Shown: piece after piece, positions 12,483 to 24,456 of the stretch
How positions within the stretch are numbered: position 1 is the stretch's first letter
Layout: each line of letters begins with the position of its first letter
Source of the DNA: Bacteroidota bacterium
Lineage (GTDB): Bacteria; Bacteroidota; Rhodothermia; Rhodothermales; Bin80
DNA length: 64,000 bases
Direction of reading: 5' to 3'
Assembly: GCA_026709065.1 (NCBI GenBank)
Contig: JAPOTS010000040.1
Location: 1 to 64,000 of the forward strand
Notes under the pieces: model-generated
The model's input: the letters and a program-made list of their open reading frames with translations, nothing else
Database searches by the model: none
Told to the model about the DNA's origin: nothing
Translations under genes and position numbers: made by a program

Positions 12483-13604
12483 ATGTCTCGTTTTATGGAC
12501 TTCAATTTTATTGACGATCGCGGCCCAGCCAAATATTTTCATGGTCGAAAAGAGATTATTGACACCTTCACCGGTCTACTCAGGTTTTATCAAGCCAATA
12601 ATCGCGGGACCACCTTTCTGATTCAAGGAGCACCCGGTGCTGGGAAAACGGCACTTTTAGATGTGTTACTCACCCAAGCACGGGACGGAGAATGGGTGAC
12701 TAAAAAGATCAGGGTCCGAGACTTGCATGATCCTGCTAGTATGATTCGTGCTCTGGGTCACTCCTACGTTGCACGCAGGCATTCTTCAACTACTGGGGAT
12801 GGGCGAGTGGTGCAACATGCACGCGGCAAGGAGTATACTGGGCACCCTACAGTGGAGGATGTGATTGCGGAGCATTTGGAGAAGCGAGGGCTGATTTTGT
12901 GGCTTGACGAGGCGCAACACCTCGGTAATCTCTCATCACTACCTGATGCCAAAGCTCTCGCCACAAGCACCTTAGATGTGATACACAATGGTGGTTTCGG
13001 TCGCCCCGTCATGCTCATAGCTGCGGGACTAGGAACGACAGAGCGTGAATTGAAATCGCTGGGCATTTCGCGGTTTGTGCGAACATGCCCAGTGTACCTT
13101 GGGGGGTTAGATAAAGCGTCCGAGGTATCTGTGATCCGTGACTGGCTCACGCTGGAAGGTAGCGCACAGGATGAGACGAAGATGTGGGTGGATTCCATAG
13201 CGGAGCAAACGCATGGCTGGCCACAGCATATCATTTCCTATATTGCCCCCGCAGTGGAGTACCTCAAGTCTAACCATGGGGTAATGACGAATGAGGGATT
13301 ACGTTTTGCACTCAAATAGGGCGATGTAGCGCGGACGAAGTATTACCAATCACGCGTGAAAGGTATTGAGAAGCGGAAGCGTCAGGCACTTGCACGAATA
13401 TTCGCTGGTGTAGAGATAGGGATATACAAGGAACGCGACAACATCTTGGATGGACTCAAGGAGGATTTTACACAAAAAGAGGCTGACAAACTGTTTAACG
13501 ATTTACTTGAGCGAGGAGTGATTGATGAGCGCATAGACGGGGACTATGGAATCCCCATCCCTTCCTTCCACACATGGCTGATTGAAGAATACGGGGAAGA
13601 TTAA
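12483..13604 (+). pseudogene. AAA ATPase gene interrupted by one in-frame TAG
   Basis: One continuous frame from the ATG at 12483 to the TAA at 13604 is broken only by TAG at 13317-13319. The first part (278 aa) has a Walker A GAPGAGKT (about 56-63), a Walker B-like LILWLDEAQH, and sensor-type residues. The second part (about 95 codons) continues as GDVARTKYYQSRVKGIEKRKR and a helical, winged-helix-like C-terminus. A CAG (Gln) to TAG change would explain the break. The GC-richer text differs from the AT-rich flanks, suggesting acquisition by transfer. The ATPase type resembles ORC/STAND-like phage or mobile-element ATPases, and no partner gene is seen. A truncated 278-aa protein could still be made. 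Confidence 0.75.
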
Positions 13605-13888
13605 GATAAGGCTGGGAGTCGCTACACTCTAAGAGGATAGAGCAATGGTGGACTGCTCAATAGGCGGACAAGACACTAAAAGCTCTAATGGGCTATCAAC
13701 ACTCACGAGTATTATGCCCAAAATTATGGGGTTGGCCAACGATTGACAATGCCTGACCAAAACGCAGGCTTATATAATCTTGAGACCGCATCAAACTTCA
13801 TTTTATCAGTGGTGATAATCATTTCATCTCATTTCGGACCGACCTTGTATCTAATTCGTTAAACGGAGTTTAGGTGATTGTCAGTTTT

Positions 13889-14782
13889 ATGCATCAGTAT
13901 TTGGATCTACTACGTCATGTTCTCAATCATGGTCACGAGCGACGTGATCGTACTGGCACTGGAACACGTAGTGTCTTTGGATACCAAATGAGATTTCCGT
14001 TAATGGATGGGTTTCCAATTGGTACAACAAAAAGAGTCTGGTTCAAAGGTCTAGCATGTGAATTGTTATGGTTTTTGTCTGGTTCAACGAATATTAAGCC
14101 ATTAGTGGACCAAGGAATTTCGATTTGGACGGCTTGGCCTCTCAAAAAATATCTACTAGATCATAATCTTGATCTTCCGCCATCAGATTCTGATAAGTGG
14201 GTAGCCCATCAGTCAGAATTTGAAGAATTGATTCAAAATCAAGAAGGATTTGCTCAACAATGGGGAGACCTTGGCCCTATCTATGGGAAACAATGGCGTG
14301 ATTTCATGGGGGTTGATCAAATTTCTGAGGTCATAGAAGCAATTAAGCATTCTCCATGGAGCCGCCGACATATTGTGAGTGCATGGAATCCAACTGAACT
14401 GCGTCAGATGGCACTTCCTCCGTGTCATATGTTTTTTCAATTTTCAGTATCGGATCACACATTATCATGTCAGCTCTATATTCGTTCCAATGATCTTTTC
14501 TTGGGAGCCCCGTTTAATATTGCCCAGTATGCTCTGTTAACTCATTTGATCGCACATCAGACGGGCCTTGAACCGGGTGATTTGATCTATACCATTGGAG
14601 ATGCACATATTTATCTGAATCATGTTGATCAAGTAACTGAGCAATTGTCGCGTAAGCCTTATCCACTGCCTCAACTCAGGATATTAAGAAAACCTAAAAC
14701 AGTGTTTGAGTATCAGTTTAGTGACTTTGACCTTCAGGGTTACCAGTGCCATCCTGTGATCAAAGCCCCCGTAGCTGTCTGA
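13889..14782 (+). CDS. thyA: Thymidylate synthase ThyA
   Basis: Converts dUMP to dTMP using methylenetetrahydrofolate. The catalytic cysteine is in [10 protein letters not shown]. Other family motifs present are [52 protein letters not shown] and the C-terminal [10 protein letters not shown]. At about 297 residues it is longer than E. coli ThyA because of an insertion between the W-TAW region and [10 protein letters not shown], as in lactobacillus-type enzymes. The ATG at 13889 aligns with the E. coli start; a GTG five codons upstream (13874) is also open. folA lies three genes downstream, joining the two steps of the folate/dTMP cycle. Confidence 0.96.
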
Positions 14783-14790
14783 CGATAATT

Positions 14791-15762
14791 ATGATAAATC
14801 GTAAACGTCAGAAAAAGACACTTCTACAAGAAGTATACAATGATAATCAAAGGCTTCTTGGAAGAGATGTCTCAACTCCCAAAAAGAGAGTGAGGCTGAT
14901 TACTCTCATACTGTTTTTATGTCTTGGTACAGGATCAGCTTTCTACTTTGGACTTGATCAAATTGACTTATCCCCTCCTGCTCCCATTTCGGAAATCCAA
15001 CCCTCTTCTGCTGAGCAAGAGATTCGCACATCCAACCAGCAGATCGCAAGTTCAGATGCGAATGTTGAAGCGACATCATTGTCCGATGTTTATGGGCTTC
15101 GTGTCAGAACGATTGCGCTGGATCCAGGGCATGGAGGTCGCGATCCGGGTGCGGTTGGGCAGATGGGTTTATTTGAAAAAACGTTAACACTGGATCTTGC
15201 ACTGCGATTGGAGCGACGATTGAAGGCCAAGGGATTAAATGTATTTCTGACGCGCAGAGACGATACATATTTAAGTCTGAGGCAAAGAGTCCAACTCGTA
15301 AAACAGAGTCAAGCGGATCTGTTTATTTCCATCCATCTCAATGCCCTCCCCGTTGACACGGTTGCGTTCATTGAAACGTTTTACTTTAGTCCTCGCGGTG
15401 ATGCCCGTGCTGAGATGGTCGCTGCTCAAGAAAATACTGGATCAGACTACAGTATTGGTGAATGGCAAAATAGGCTTGAAGCCGCAGGTCAGACCGTCAG
15501 GATAGAAGAAAGTCGACTCCTTGCTTCGCATATACAAGATGCGATGGTTGTTCAGATGAGGGACATCAATAATAAACTTGCTGATTGGGGAGCCAGATCG
15601 GGCCCCTTCATGCTATTGATGAATACCGATGTGCCCGCAATTTTGGCCGAAGTTACAGCGATTTCAATGCCAGAAGAAGAAAAGCGTCTCATGGATATTG
15701 ATTATCGCGAAATGCTTGCCCATGGCTTGGAGATTGGAATTCTATCTTATCTTTCCCAATAA
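14791..15762 (+). CDS. N-acetylmuramoyl-L-alanine amidase (Amidase_3)
   Basis: A 323-residue cell-wall amidase with an N-terminal membrane anchor (LITLILFLCLGTGSAFYFGL), a low-complexity linker, then a zinc-dependent Amidase_3 catalytic domain from about residue 110. Zinc ligands are visible: the His of DPGHGGRDPGAVG, the following Glu in FEKTLTLDLALRL, and the His of SIHLNAL. A Glu in the ILAEVTAIS end motif completes the site. It has the AmiABC-like helical insert between the last two. It probably splits daughter cells at the septum. It starts 8 bases after thyA, and an actin-like gene follows. Confidence 0.92.
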   Translation: MINRKRQKKTLLQEVYNDNQRLLGRDVSTPKKRVRLITLILFLCLGTGSAFYFGLDQIDLSPPAPISEIQPSSAEQEIRTSNQQIASSDANVEATSLSDVYGLRVRTIALDPGHGGRDPGAVGQMGLFEKTLTLDLALRLERRLKAKGLNVFLTRRDDTYLSLRQRVQLVKQSQADLFISIHLNALPVDTVAFIETFYFSPRGDARAEMVAAQENTGSDYSIGEWQNRLEAAGQTVRIEESRLLASHIQDAMVVQMRDINNKLADWGARSGPFMLLMNTDVPAILAEVTAISMPEEEKRLMDIDYREMLAHGLEIGILSYLSQ

Positions 15763-15790: not shown

Positions 15791-16816
15791 ATGTCACAGA
15801 ACTCTGATTCATTTAACGGAAGCCTTCGTATCGGGATTGATCTTGGTACATCGCGCAGTGCGATCGCTGCTAGTAATGGCAAAAAAAGATGGGTTCACAG
15901 TTATGTAGGCTGGCCCCAAGATTTTGTTGCCCGTAGAATGCTAAAGCAGGATGTACTCATTGGCATGGATGCAATTGAACATCGCAATTCTGTTAATCTC
16001 GTTCGGCCCCTTGAATATGGTGTGATTCGAGACGGAACTGAGAGAGATGAAAAAGCAGTCCGTGAGTTAATCCGTCACTTGATAAACCTTGCCCAACCTG
16101 AGGAAGGTCAGAAAATTTTTGCCGCCGTTGGCGTTCCAGCCGAAGCACTTCGCGTTAATAAACTTGCCATACGTGATGCTGTTGGAGAATGGGCAGACAC
16201 CCTGATGTTGGTTTCAGAGCCATTCGCAGTTGCTTATCGACTCGGGGCCCTCAATAACACTTGCATCATTGACATTGGTGCTGGAACGATTGATTTTTGT
16301 GTCATGCATGGGACGATGCCTAGCGAGGAAGATCAACGCTCACTGCGTACAGCAGGTGACTATATTGATGAACAGCTGTTTAATCTATTGTCCGAGCGCT
16401 TTGTAAATACGCCATTCAGTGAAACATTCGCACGTGAAATCAAGGAAAAGCATGGAAGCGTGACGGATGCATCCGATCGAATTCAAGTTAGCATACCAGT
16501 GTCCGGAAAATTTGAAACGCATGACCTGACAGAAGAAGTTTGGCGTGTTTGTGATTCTTTGGTTCCATCAATTGCCGAAACCCTTATTGATTTATTGAGC
16601 ACCTACGAACCGATGTTACAGGAACGGATTCGGCATAACATATACCTCGCGGGTGGCGGTAGTCAGATTCAGGGACTTGGCAGAGCTTTGAGTTCTGCGC
16701 TGGAAGAGTATGGTCAGTTTACAATTACTCCAATTCAAGATCCGTTATTCAGTGGTGCGGAAGGGGCCCTGAGTCTAGCGGAAGATATGCCAGAAGAATA
16801 TTGGGAAAATATGTAA
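15791..16816 (+). CDS. MamK-like bacterial actin
   Basis: A 341-residue actin-fold ATPase. Phosphate-1 is GIDLGTSRSA (15-24), the catalytic Glu region is VSEPFAVAY (141-149), phosphate-2 is IDIGAGTIDF (160-169) and the adenosine motif is LAGGGSQIQG (286-295). The length and several stretches (GVPAEALRVNK, GDYIDEQLFN, GALSLAEDMPEEYW at the end) resemble MamK, the magnetosome filament protein, more than MreB, FtsA or DnaK. No magnetosome genes are nearby; it is between a cell-wall amidase and folA. A role in cell shape or intracellular positioning is inference. The ATG at 15791 is chosen because residues before it belong to the end of the amidase gene in another frame. Confidence 0.8.
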   Translation: MSQNSDSFNGSLRIGIDLGTSRSAIAASNGKKRWVHSYVGWPQDFVARRMLKQDVLIGMDAIEHRNSVNLVRPLEYGVIRDGTERDEKAVRELIRHLINLAQPEEGQKIFAAVGVPAEALRVNKLAIRDAVGEWADTLMLVSEPFAVAYRLGALNNTCIIDIGAGTIDFCVMHGTMPSEEDQRSLRTAGDYIDEQLFNLLSERFVNTPFSETFAREIKEKHGSVTDASDRIQVSIPVSGKFETHDLTEEVWRVCDSLVPSIAETLIDLLSTYEPMLQERIRHNIYLAGGGSQIQGLGRALSSALEEYGQFTITPIQDPLFSGAEGALSLAEDMPEEYWENM

Positions 16817-16827
16817 ATCGCCCCCGA

Positions 16828-17322
16828 GTGATCATTATCGCAGCGGTGGCCCGAGATAATCTATGTATTGGTAAGGACTCGCATCTTCCTTGGCACATCC
16901 CTGAGGATATGCGCCGATTCAAACGGCTCACCTATGGGCATCCGCTTATTATGGGGCGCGTCACCTGTCAAGGGTTGATTCGTGATTTTGGCGGGCCATT
17001 GCCTGGTCGTCAATTGATTGCATTGTCTCACAGAGTGGGTACTGACATTCATCCAGATATTCAGGTGTGCGGGTCGTTAATCTCTGCAATAGATCATGCA
17101 AAGCCTGCCAAACAAGTCTTTATTGCTGGTGGGGCAATCATCTATCAAGAGGCTTTGGAGTTCGCAGATAGACTTGAATTAACTCTTGTTGACGGTGCGT
17201 ATGATGGGGATACCTTCTTTCCGCCGTTCAAGCATTTGATTGGGACAACATTCGCACTGACGCATGAAGATGTCCACGAAGGGTTCTCCTTTGTGACCTA
17301 TGACAGAATCCGTCCGACATAA
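16828..17322 (+). CDS. folA: Dihydrofolate reductase
   Basis: Reduces dihydrofolate to tetrahydrofolate, recycling the product of ThyA. Motifs seen: IIAAVARDNLCIGKDSHLPW (N-terminal NADPH/folate loop), PEDMRRFKRLTYGHPLIMGR, and VFIAGGAIIYQEAL with the GG of the cofactor site. The length of about 164 residues from the GTG at 16828 matches the family. A TTG at 16801, overlapping the end of the actin gene, is an upstream alternative. It is last in the thyA-amidase-actin-folA set and convergent with bshA. Confidence 0.94.
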   Translation: MIIIAAVARDNLCIGKDSHLPWHIPEDMRRFKRLTYGHPLIMGRVTCQGLIRDFGGPLPGRQLIALSHRVGTDIHPDIQVCGSLISAIDHAKPAKQVFIAGGAIIYQEALEFADRLELTLVDGAYDGDTFFPPFKHLIGTTFALTHEDVHEGFSFVTYDRIRPT

Positions 17323-20523: not shown

Positions 20524-21114
20524 ATGGACAATATACCAGATATCATCGTTGCTGTGACGATTGTTAGCAGTTATTTTGCGATTTTCTTCCCTTTGATTAG
20601 AATGATCATTGGATTCAGAAAGGAGTTTCGGGCTGAAATGACATTCATTAAAACCGATATTTTACAAGTGAAAACCGATATCACGGTCATGAAGTCTGAC
20701 ATTTCCGAACTGAAGACCGACGTTTCCCAACTGAAGACCGACGTTTCCAAACTGAAGACCGACGTTTCCCAACTGAAGACCGACGTTTCCGAAAATAAGT
20801 TTAGACTCACTACTGTGGAAAACTGCTTAGAAAACTTAACTGCTGATGTCAATCATATCAAGGTTGATGTGTCAACAATTAAATCTGAGATTACAGAAAT
20901 AAAAATGAATGCTATTAGTTTGGAGAAAGATGTCTCACACATTAATAGCCAAGTCAATGAAGACAGGTTGATTTCCCAAAAAGAGCATCTGGATCTTGAA
21001 AAAACTATTGAGGAACTCACTAAAAAAGTTTTTGACCTCAATGGGGACATGAAAAGAGTCTCAGGGCGTTTATTTGGAGTTGATGAACAAATTATATCTG
21101 AGTTGACAGAATGA
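20524..21114 (+). CDS. Membrane-anchored heptad-repeat coiled-coil protein
   Basis: A 196-residue protein with one N-terminal hydrophobic helix (IIVAVTIVSSYFAIFFPLI) and then an almost uninterrupted coiled coil. Residues about 62-89 are four near-identical heptads LKTDVSQ/LKTDVSK, preceded and followed by looser versions (IKTDI, MKSDI, LKTDV, IKVDV, IKSEI). Such proteins resemble DUF1640-like and phage-tail-like coiled coils, but no family is firmly recognised. It is the only intact gene between two pseudogene stretches, and its upstream palindromes suggest it is expressed. Confidence 0.7.
   Translation: MDNIPDIIVAVTIVSSYFAIFFPLIRMIIGFRKEFRAEMTFIKTDILQVKTDITVMKSDISELKTDVSQLKTDVSKLKTDVSQLKTDVSENKFRLTTVENCLENLTADVNHIKVDVSTIKSEITEIKMNAISLEKDVSHINSQVNEDRLISQKEHLDLEKTIEELTKKVFDLNGDMKRVSGRLFGVDEQIISELTE
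20707..20790 (+). repeat. Four tandem 21-bp repeats encoding heptads
   Basis: The 20-base core AACTGAAGACCGACGTTTCC recurs four times at exact 21-base spacing, differing only in the first base of each unit (G, C, A, C). Near-identity at the DNA level indicates recent expansion by slippage, keeping the frame and the heptad register. Confidence 0.85.
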
Positions 21115-22583: not shown

Positions 22584-23237
22584 TTATCGGACATCCGAAT
22601 AGAAGCGGAACCTGCGTTCATTCAATTGAAAATTCCTGTAAGGAACGATTGGAGTTAAATCTCCGACCCATTCAGGAGCAATTTCTTCATTCAGCATAGA
22701 CTGTTCGCTGTAAAAATGGCGAACTTTATATCCGAAGGGGCGCAGTTGTGATTCGGCATGGCGGATATGGAAGGCCAATGCAATGGTTTTTTGCCAACTC
22801 GCAAGTTCGGTCATTTCTGTCAAGTTGGTGAAATAGCGATACTTATTTTGATTAGGTATAAATGCGCTGAACTGAAACGGATCCAGCACACAATCTTTAT
22901 AGGTCGTACACCCGCGATAGTTAGTTTCTAAGCGGTTACGAACTGTCCAACCAATTAATTCTTGCTCATCGTATCGCTTACTTTCAGAAAACATGGCGCG
23001 TGCAAGCCACAAGGTCTCAGAATCAATATTGGAGATGTGGATCGGTTTAATGGACCACGGGTTCCAAAGGACAGATTTCTTTTCTTGTAGTGTAGGAATA
23101 GATAAAGGTGGCGGACTATCAATTGACCGGCTACCTGCATCAAAAGGGGGCGCAAAAGCCGTCAAACTTGGTAAAATACAGGCGAAAAGCACCCCAAGTG
23201 ACATACAAACCAAGAGTTTTGGTAATCGTACAGACAT
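22584..23237 (-). CDS. Exported SleB-like cell-wall hydrolase
   Basis: A protein of about 217 residues with a signal peptide (LPKLLVCMSLGVLFACILPSL), a linker, then a compact domain beginning LARAMFSESKRYDEQELIGW and VRNRLETNYRGCTTYKDCVL, the pattern of the SleB/Hydrolase_2 family. The Glu in FSESK is the likely catalytic residue, and PFQFSAF matches the usual P-x-QFS loop. The frame is open upstream to 23435, but that part overlaps pdxB on the other strand, and the ATG at 23237 gives a clean signal peptide. It is divergent from pdxB. Confidence 0.7.
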   Translation of the reverse strand: MSVRLPKLLVCMSLGVLFACILPSLTAFAPPFDAGSRSIDSPPPLSIPTLQEKKSVLWNPWSIKPIHISNIDSETLWLARAMFSESKRYDEQELIGWTVRNRLETNYRGCTTYKDCVLDPFQFSAFIPNQNKYRYFTNLTEMTELASWQKTIALAFHIRHAESQLRPFGYKVRHFYSEQSMLNEEIAPEWVGDLTPIVPYRNFQLNERRFRFYSDVR

Positions 23238-23313
23238 TAATTTTAGTAAGTCTGGTAAAGTGATTATACACATTAACGGGATATAATACGCAATTTTATA
23301 TAAAAGGATACAG

Positions 23314-24456
23314 ATGTTATCCATTGTTGCAGACATCAATATTCCCAGAATCATTGACGCATTTAGCTCCATAGGACATGTTGAGGTCATGGCTGCGGAA
23401 TCAATTACTGCGGAGATCTGCAGGGAAGTTGACATTCTGTTAGTGAGAAGTGTTACAAGGGTTAATGCCTCTCTTTTGGATCAGTCAAATGTTGCCTTTG
23501 TCGGATCAGCGAGTGCTGGCTCAGATCATATCAATCAATCTTATTTGAGACAAAGAGAAATCGCATTTGCCCATGCCTCTGGATCAAATGCGGATTCTGT
23601 CGTAGAGTATGTACTCACTGCATTGGTTCGCTTGAGTGCTATGAATAGGAAGAAATTAGAAGGTTTAACGCTTGGAATTGTTGGTTGTGGGAATATTGGA
23701 GGGAGGCTGGCAAGGCGAGCGCCTGCATTTGGATTGAATGTTTTGAAAAATGATCCGCCTGTTGCAAACAGCGGTGGTCAGGGGTTTGTTGATTTGGAGA
23801 CAGTTCTGGCGGAATCAGATATTCTCACATTACATGTTCCTAAGCATACAGATACCTATCATTTGATTTCCGATGCCGAGTTGGAAGCAATCAAGCCTGG
23901 GGCATGGATCATCAATGCCGCTCGGGGTGATGTGGTTAATAATCAAGCCCTTAAAAAAGCAATCATGTGTGGACATATTGATGGATGCGTTCTTGATGTA
24001 TGGGAAAATGAGCCCACTCCCGACATGGAGTTGTTAGATATTACAACGTTGGGAACGCCCCACATTGCAGGGCACTCAGTAGATGGAAAATTATGGGGTA
24101 CCATCATGTTGTATCAAGCCGTGACAAAGCATTTTGAGATTCAACCAACCTGGGATTATGAGGCGTTACTTCGTCTGGATCTGCCCGAAATCATGACAGT
24201 CCCTCTTGGGGCTAACTGGTTAGATAGATTCGTCAAACACCTGTATAATATTGACTCTGACAGTAAGCGAATGAGAGAACTTCTAAGTGTCCCAGAAACC
24301 AAGATTGCAGATGGATTCCGAAGACTACGACGCACGTATCCACCCCGGAGAGCGTTTGATTGGCATATCCTTAAAGAAGTGCCGCCGTCTTATCTGGATA
24401 TTATTCGTGATGGATTATGCGTCAGCTATTTGTATCCGAAAGACCGTAAAAAATGA
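23314..24456 (+). CDS. pdxB: Erythronate-4-phosphate dehydrogenase PdxB
   Basis: A 380-residue D-2-hydroxyacid dehydrogenase acting at the second step of deoxyxylulose-dependent vitamin B6 synthesis. It starts with VADINIPRI. The NAD-binding motif is GIVGCGNIGGRLARRAPAFG and the catalytic Arg is in INAARGDVV. Glu is in VLDVWENEPTPD and His in GTPHIAGHSVDGK. The C-terminal dimerisation domain specific to PdxB is present, with residual PPRRAFD text. Its 3' end overlaps era on the other strand by about 31 bases. pdxJ is close by. Confidence 0.93.
   Translation: MLSIVADINIPRIIDAFSSIGHVEVMAAESITAEICREVDILLVRSVTRVNASLLDQSNVAFVGSASAGSDHINQSYLRQREIAFAHASGSNADSVVEYVLTALVRLSAMNRKKLEGLTLGIVGCGNIGGRLARRAPAFGLNVLKNDPPVANSGGQGFVDLETVLAESDILTLHVPKHTDTYHLISDAELEAIKPGAWIINAARGDVVNNQALKKAIMCGHIDGCVLDVWENEPTPDMELLDITTLGTPHIAGHSVDGKLWGTIMLYQAVTKHFEIQPTWDYEALLRLDLPEIMTVPLGANWLDRFVKHLYNIDSDSKRMRELLSVPETKIADGFRRLRRTYPPRRAFDWHILKEVPPSYLDIIRDGLCVSYLYPKDRKK

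Follow-up and report, generated by a model that had tools for sequence, protein, structure and literature searches.

The window, by which we mean the whole 64,000 nucleotide stretch of Rhodothermales DNA analysed here, carries a gene for a MamK-like actin directly downstream of a gene for a membrane-anchored wall amidase, and the two are flanked by thyA and folA (Table 1). A gap of 28 bases separates the amidase and actin genes, and an alternative GTG start for the amidase is open at position 14746. When we compared the predicted actin with profile models, Pfam MreB_Mbl gave 82.7 bits and the actin was complete, while the NCBIfam MamK model (NF040964) matched residues 12-340 of 341 at 384.2 bits (E 4.8e-115), a score that narrowly misses the curated cut-off of 400 bits. 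The closest PDB sequences were MamK (1.3e-73, full length), BeeR (1.1e-37) and MreB (4.3e-15). The AlphaFold2 model (mean pLDDT 92, pTM 0.89) had the MamK filament 5ljv as its top PDB fold match (TM 0.92), and the protein keeps the actin fold together with the conserved glycine and aspartate positions. The first-pass annotation had described a MamK-like actin with thyA, an amidase and folA as its neighbours, and this description held throughout: MamK is nearest by profile, by PDB sequence and by fold, and the neighbours were recovered by profile (thyA, Amidase_3 and DHFR). On such likeness, the protein would be expected to form ATP-dependent filaments as MamK does.

Table 1. Features of the amidase-actin locus, in window positions.
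Feature	Position	Strand	Basis or remark
thyA, thymidylate synthase	13874-14782	+	local neighbour, outside the two-gene unit
Membrane-anchored N-acetylmuramoyl-L-alanine amidase (Amidase_3), 323 aa from ATG	14791-15762	+	Pfam, fold
Putative docking motif core, amidase residues 7-22, QKKTLLQEVYNDNQRL	14809-14856	+	tail alignment, motif model
Single membrane helix, amidase residues 36-54 by hydropathy (AlphaFold2 helix 33-48)	14896-14952	+	
Periplasmic Amidase_3 catalytic domain, amidase residues 108-317	15112-15741	+	conserved H114, E129, H182, E287
MamK-like actin, 341 aa	15791-16816	+	ATG start, TAA stop; profile, structure and tree matches
folA, dihydrofolate reductase	16801-17322	+	local neighbour, outside the two-gene unit

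Three other features were observed near the locus. Between a gamma-glutamyltransferase-like gene and thyA lies an AAA ATPase-like ORF followed by a second, small one (12483-13604); it is missing at the same place in several relatives and by eye looks like the remnant of a mobile element. The protein at 20524-21114 has a membrane segment followed by numerous repeats of an LKTDVSQ-like heptad, and at 22584-23435 on the reverse strand lies another candidate wall hydrolase, which by eye resembles SleB/CwlJ and is kept in close relatives.

Among bacterial actins, MreB directs wall synthesis and FtsA division, and the window actin belongs with neither family. On it the MreB model TIGR00904 scored 66.8 bits against a cut-off of 365.75, the FtsA profiles also stayed below their cut-offs (Pfam FtsA, 29.9 against 31.8; TIGR01174, 28.5 against 175.85), the BeeR model NF053558 gave 182.1 bits against a cut-off of 530, and Alp7A_like_C matched weakly, at 23 bits for a cut-off of 22. 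In an actin tree of 117 rows with MreB included, MreB separated from the window actin with 100% SH-aLRT support on a branch of 3.68. A firm place within MreB or FtsA, which would have spoken against the annotation, is accordingly countered by the tree for MreB and by profile score only for FtsA. The amidase-linked actins formed one group (27 rows from the order and 20 others; SH-aLRT 93), and the other MamK-like actins, AMB-1 MamK included, formed a second (SH-aLRT 99), so that the window actin does not group with AMB-1 MamK; these are two sister groups, and the root between them depends on the very long MreB branch; the ancestral status that the annotation suggested is accordingly no more than possible. 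Two loci, L084 and L087, fell at the base, in neither group. When all 48 linked rows were held in one clade, the likelihood was slightly above that of the free search (AU test, p-AU 0.56). The tree left out the near copies L005, L009, L010 and L058, the MreB loci L028, L029 and L064, the MreB fragment locus L022, and L070, which is the same record as G014.

Elsewhere in the same genome (3.34 Mb, 139 contigs, 98% complete) we found one MreB above the family cut-off, and the window actin is therefore an additional actin. The possibility that it replaces MreB was rejected, since the MreB model matched in all 39 genomes searched, above cut-off in 37 of them. The MamP and MamM models had no match anywhere in the window's genome, which extends to the whole genome, for these two models, the absence of magnetosome genes that had been noticed locally.

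Among the relatives searched, the window's own genome included, the actin was present above 400 bits in 21 of 39 genomes, and at E<=1e-40 it occurred in 34 of 244 class genomes searched, all from Rhodothermales. Further afield, a scan of titled genomes gave at least 167 confirmed loci, the best 80 of which include Gammaproteobacteria, Desulfobulbaceae, Nitrospirota, Acidobacteriota, Schekmanbacteria, Planctomycetota, Poseidoniales archaea and magnetotactic lineages; phylum counts from these best 80 are not a census. An Amidase_3 gene was found upstream on the same strand in 31 of 31 Rhodothermales loci (30 from relatives and the window; these gene-context counts leave out the actin matches in G174, G195 and G196 and the second copy in G214). 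The same arrangement was found in 21 of 79 other loci among the best 80 of 167 (L071-L086, L088, L090, L093, L095 and L148; L070 duplicates G014), which by their record titles belong to Gammaproteobacteria, Desulfobulbaceae and other 'Deltaproteobacteria', Nitrospirota, Acidobacteriota and Schekmanbacteria. All linked cases outside Rhodothermales in this set come from uncultured genome bins. In most loci the two genes abut or overlap (gaps of -32 to +74 bases), with three wider gaps of 136 (L049), 284 (L041) and 366 bases (L040). The tie between actin and amidase, which the annotation had drawn from adjacency, is thus kept in relatives and extends far beyond this locus. The annotation's wider grouping of cell wall and folate genes did not survive: thyA and folA stand on either side of the pair in the window's close family alone, and both lie nearby in one further genome (G026); a folate and cell wall gene set was rejected as a unit because this neighbourhood is merely local.

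The partner enzyme matches Amidase_3 (PF01520) at 145.8 bits (cut-off 27, E 1.8e-42), and structure comparison gave it an AmiA/AmiC-like fold. Pfam found no second domain in it; E. coli AmiC has an AMIN domain. What sets it apart from E. coli AmiA and AmiC, with which it shares the catalytic fold, is a tail motif and a membrane helix. Linked amidases consist of a short motif-bearing tail, one hydrophobic helix and then the enzyme. In the window the tail motif reads KTLLQEVYNDNQRL, and AlphaFold2 placed a helix at residues 2-22 with moderate confidence. When we aligned 19 sequences (alignment A4), Asn19 (codon 14845-14847) was unchanged in all rows, as were H114, E129, H182 and E287 of the enzyme, which we take to be the zinc and catalytic residues; between tail and enzyme the sequence is highly variable. 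Four of the 52 linked amidases (L044, L051, L059 and L079) are clipped by contig ends, and 47 of the 48 with a complete N-end had a motif score of at least 20, the exception being L084 with a weak motif (10.8). The tail of the L045 amidase (G022) carries the motif twice, which suggests a binding unit open to duplication.

By hydropathy, a membrane helix follows the tail in 44 of 47 linked amidases, and the tail side is more positive than the far side of the helix in 46 of 47. According to the positive-inside rule the more positive side of a membrane helix is cytoplasmic, and the tail would for this reason be cytosolic. Hydropathy said little about a second helix within the enzyme, with 14 of 47 below the cut. 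It is also conceivable that the N-terminal hydrophobic segment is a cleaved signal, which would separate the tail from the enzyme. The motif was rejected as a general feature of Amidase_3 proteins, since eight unlinked paralogues lacked it (scores <=3.5), and a tree of the amidases separated these eight fully (100%) from the 52 linked enzymes and that of G012.

Co-occurrence across genomes followed the same line. In the search of 39 genomes, a linked amidase was found at E<=1e-57 in all 21 actin-positive genomes, and the best amidase in the 18 actin-negative ones reached 9e-47 (G012), the next 6.5e-24. In each of the 12 actin-positive genomes tested, the motif model gave a single strong match (E<=3.2e-7); six of these genomes had supplied rows to the model and six had not. 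It gave no strong match in five actin-negative genomes (best E 0.34); the next-best match anywhere in the genomes of the tested relatives was at E 0.125. The match in G020 lies on a separate short contig and is taken to be the missing front of a contig-clipped amidase. In the window's genus (G000-G009), the linked amidase is the sole amidase match at E<=1e-5.

A natural loss was found in G012, a member of the window's family with no actin match in its genome. Its amidase still lies directly before folA and bshA, with the actin gene gone from between, and when we scored its tail for the motif, none was found. This enzyme is nested among the linked amidases (98% SH-aLRT) on a branch of 1.23, several times those of its neighbours. 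It is the only joint loss of motif and actin seen, and counts as one event.

A similar peptide was found in other proteins encoded beside MamK-family actins. Using a tail model built from 43 of the 52 linked amidases, we scanned all 7,971 stop-to-stop ORFs of at least 40 aa in the 58 loci without amidase among the best 80 of 167. The top nine ORFs included seven on the same strand that ended just upstream of the actin, a class that makes up 191 of the 7,971. With a 16-column matrix made from amidase tails alone, 17 of the top 20 ORFs lay directly upstream (hypergeometric p 1.5e-25). In 200 shuffles of the upstream ORFs, a mean of 0.25 loci (at most 2) reached at least 13 bits, against 17 of 57 observed, although these 17 loci are not 17 independent events because the planctomycete upstream proteins are partly homologous. 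Once iterated, the matrix passed 14 bits in 36 of 58 loci, and in 33 of these the motif lay no more than 30 residues from the C-terminus; this count is not independent, and only iteration 0 gives unbiased figures. In the other 22 of the 58 the upstream motif was below the final threshold, and the matrix scan found none upstream of classical proteobacterial mamK or Poseidoniales genes. Among 16 MreB loci scored as a comparison, 15 had best scores of 1.5-10.5 and one, at 16.5, was above threshold. When the motif was masked and 37 upstream proteins were clustered, they fell into ten clusters, none joined to the one amidase included. In the reverse scan, a matrix of the C-terminal motifs placed the amidase ORF at the top in 38 of 51 amidase loci, a result that is partly circular, the C-terminal motifs having been chosen by their likeness to amidase tails; in two of the 38 (L044 and L051, with contig-clipped N-ends) the best-scoring segment was not the tail.

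Several proteins in these loci were observed individually. In L107 (5344-5862), L112, L115 and L126 (5473-5994), homologous small proteins directly before mamK end in the motif, two of these loci, L107 and L126, being magnetosome clusters in which MamM occurs together with MamP or MamN; these small proteins are candidate MamK adaptors of deep-branching magnetotactic bacteria. Two GGDEF (diguanylate cyclase) proteins, L094:10388-11563 and L098:4141-5904, carry the same C-terminal motif near MamK-like actins and are a possible c-di-GMP client of the filament; both belong to planctomycete-type loci, where the L098 protein is encoded upstream of the actin and that of L094 by a further gene. A MamK-like actin of about 41% identity was also seen in marine Poseidoniales archaea and a related euryarchaeote (L134, L135, L138, L139, L141, L142 and L123), downstream of a cysteine-rich protein, with no docking motif found upstream.

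On balance we lean towards the view that the helical peptide (K/R)xx(I/L/M)(L/M)xx(I/V/L)(Y/F/V)x(D/E/A)Nxx(L/I/M) acts as a docking code for MamK-family actins in general, gained by unrelated proteins at either end. The wall amidase, the GGDEF cyclase, coiled-coil or membrane proteins and the proteins of deep-branching magnetosome clusters would then be cargo or anchors of the filament encoded beside them.

Known systems offer several points of comparison. MamK filaments carry cargo via the MamJ adaptor, encoded beside mamK (PMC10653835). The window pair resembles MamK and MamJ in having an actin of the same family by profile, sequence and fold, and a partner gene directly upstream, the position reported for MamJ (PMC10653835). 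It differs in that the partner is a wall amidase and not a magnetosome adaptor, the actin lies in a separate clade, the genome has no MamP or MamM match, and the scan for the tail-type motif gave nothing upstream of classical proteobacterial mamK. A second parallel is the bactofilin BacA, which recruits the one-helix endopeptidase LmdC, whose short cytosolic tail binds the polymer; the lmdC gene overlaps its cytoskeletal neighbour, and the tail was shown to localise the enzyme (PMC10945521). The window pair combines the build of the MamK and bactofilin systems. Like BacA and LmdC, it has a wall hydrolase that crosses the membrane once and carries a short tail on the cytosolic side, with an adjoining cytoskeletal gene, in many phyla. 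In the window, however, an actin takes the place of the bactofilin, Amidase_3 that of M23 and a helical motif that of a beta-hairpin; tail, helix and pairing are present, and polymer binding is a prediction.

MamK-related actins outside magnetosome bearers have been described before. Bbp, the 'big bacteria protein', is a MamK/MreB-like actin of organisms without magnetosomes (PMC10580974). Judged from the organism name only, L147 (Beggiatoa) may belong to this group; its upstream protein has the C-terminal motif, and it differs from the window pair in having no amidase partner and in lying on another branch of the tree. BeeR, which polymerises with ATP, is a further MamK-related actin from bacteria without magnetosomes (PMC11929497), and the window actin shares this setting but is distinct from BeeR by score (182 bits against the cut-off of 530). 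Coiled-coil Mad proteins form a chain-organising network with MamK (PMC12748827), and the word 'motif' is absent from the main text of that paper. In open-licence literature we found no link between MamK and an amidase, the sole co-mention concerning locust immunity, and nothing that combines MamK, N-acetylmuramoyl-L-alanine amidase and actin. For MamK together with Rhodothermales, that literature offered a passage on planctobacterial MamK actins.

We consider it quite probable that amidase and actin make up a two-gene transmembrane unit in which the tail docks on the filament and the filament positions the amidase. The actin would polymerise in the cytoplasm as MamK does, and the amidase would span the inner membrane, its N-tail in the cytoplasm and its enzyme part in the periplasm. 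The tail helix KTLLQEVYNDNQRL would dock on the actin filament, presumably by direct binding, and the filament would cluster or track the amidase and decide the site of wall cutting, whether septum or side wall. The septum, implied by the annotation's septal-type amidase, is one of two candidate sites, and a role in cell separation is plausible because the amidase fold is AmiA/AmiC-like. At the C-terminus of unrelated upstream-encoded proteins, a like peptide would dock other cargo to MamK-family filaments. Pairing across phyla, the tail motif, the topology signals, the co-loss and the motif shared across families all support this model at the sequence level, and the annotation's suggestion of a non-magnetosome filament, read as serving the wall amidase, is the one that the evidence favours.

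The amidase could instead be an anchor only, its tail tying the filament to the membrane or wall while the filament carries other cargo (protein complexes, the chromosome or inclusion bodies) and wall cutting is incidental. The motif is indeed common to non-enzymatic coiled-coil and membrane proteins, but the enzyme is complete, with its four conserved residues intact in 19/19 rows, the partner in the clade is always an amidase, and in the window's genus no other amidase was matched at E<=1e-5, which makes such a role rather unlikely. That the two genes are merely co-regulated and their proteins act apart would be in keeping with the shared regulation often found among neighbouring genes; it predicts neither the loss of the motif along with the actin nor a motif in unrelated MamK-neighbour proteins, and we regard it as very improbable.

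The actin might also be a true magnetosome MamK remaining after loss of the magnetosome island, as its 384 bits with the NCBIfam MamK model and its closest fold would allow. This was already disfavoured and now appears scarcely credible, since the amidase-linked clade spans phyla and stands apart from the clade of AMB-1 MamK (99% SH-aLRT), and since neither MamP nor MamM was matched in the genome. Somewhat less likely than the anchor role, and still improbable, is a reversed flow of information, in which the tail nucleates, caps or depolymerises the actin and the state of the wall signals to the cytoskeleton. The doubled motif of L045 would suit such signalling, as would MamJ, encoded beside mamK and reported to be needed to tune MamK turnover (PMC10653835); the sequence features, for their part, do not separate reverse signalling from docking.

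The locus thus presents an actin outside the MreB and FtsA families that is tied to a wall hydrolase by gene order, by co-loss and by a shared peptide. If the model of an amidase docked on and positioned by the filament is true, the pair would be the actin counterpart of the bactofilin-LmdC system, and the widespread MamK-like actins of bacteria without magnetosomes would gain a function. The peptide would then predict clients of the filament from sequence, including partners of MamK in deep-branching magnetotactic bacteria, and, should the general docking code hold as well, the positioning of magnetosomes in those bacteria would be a single instance of a broader cargo system with the cell wall among its users.
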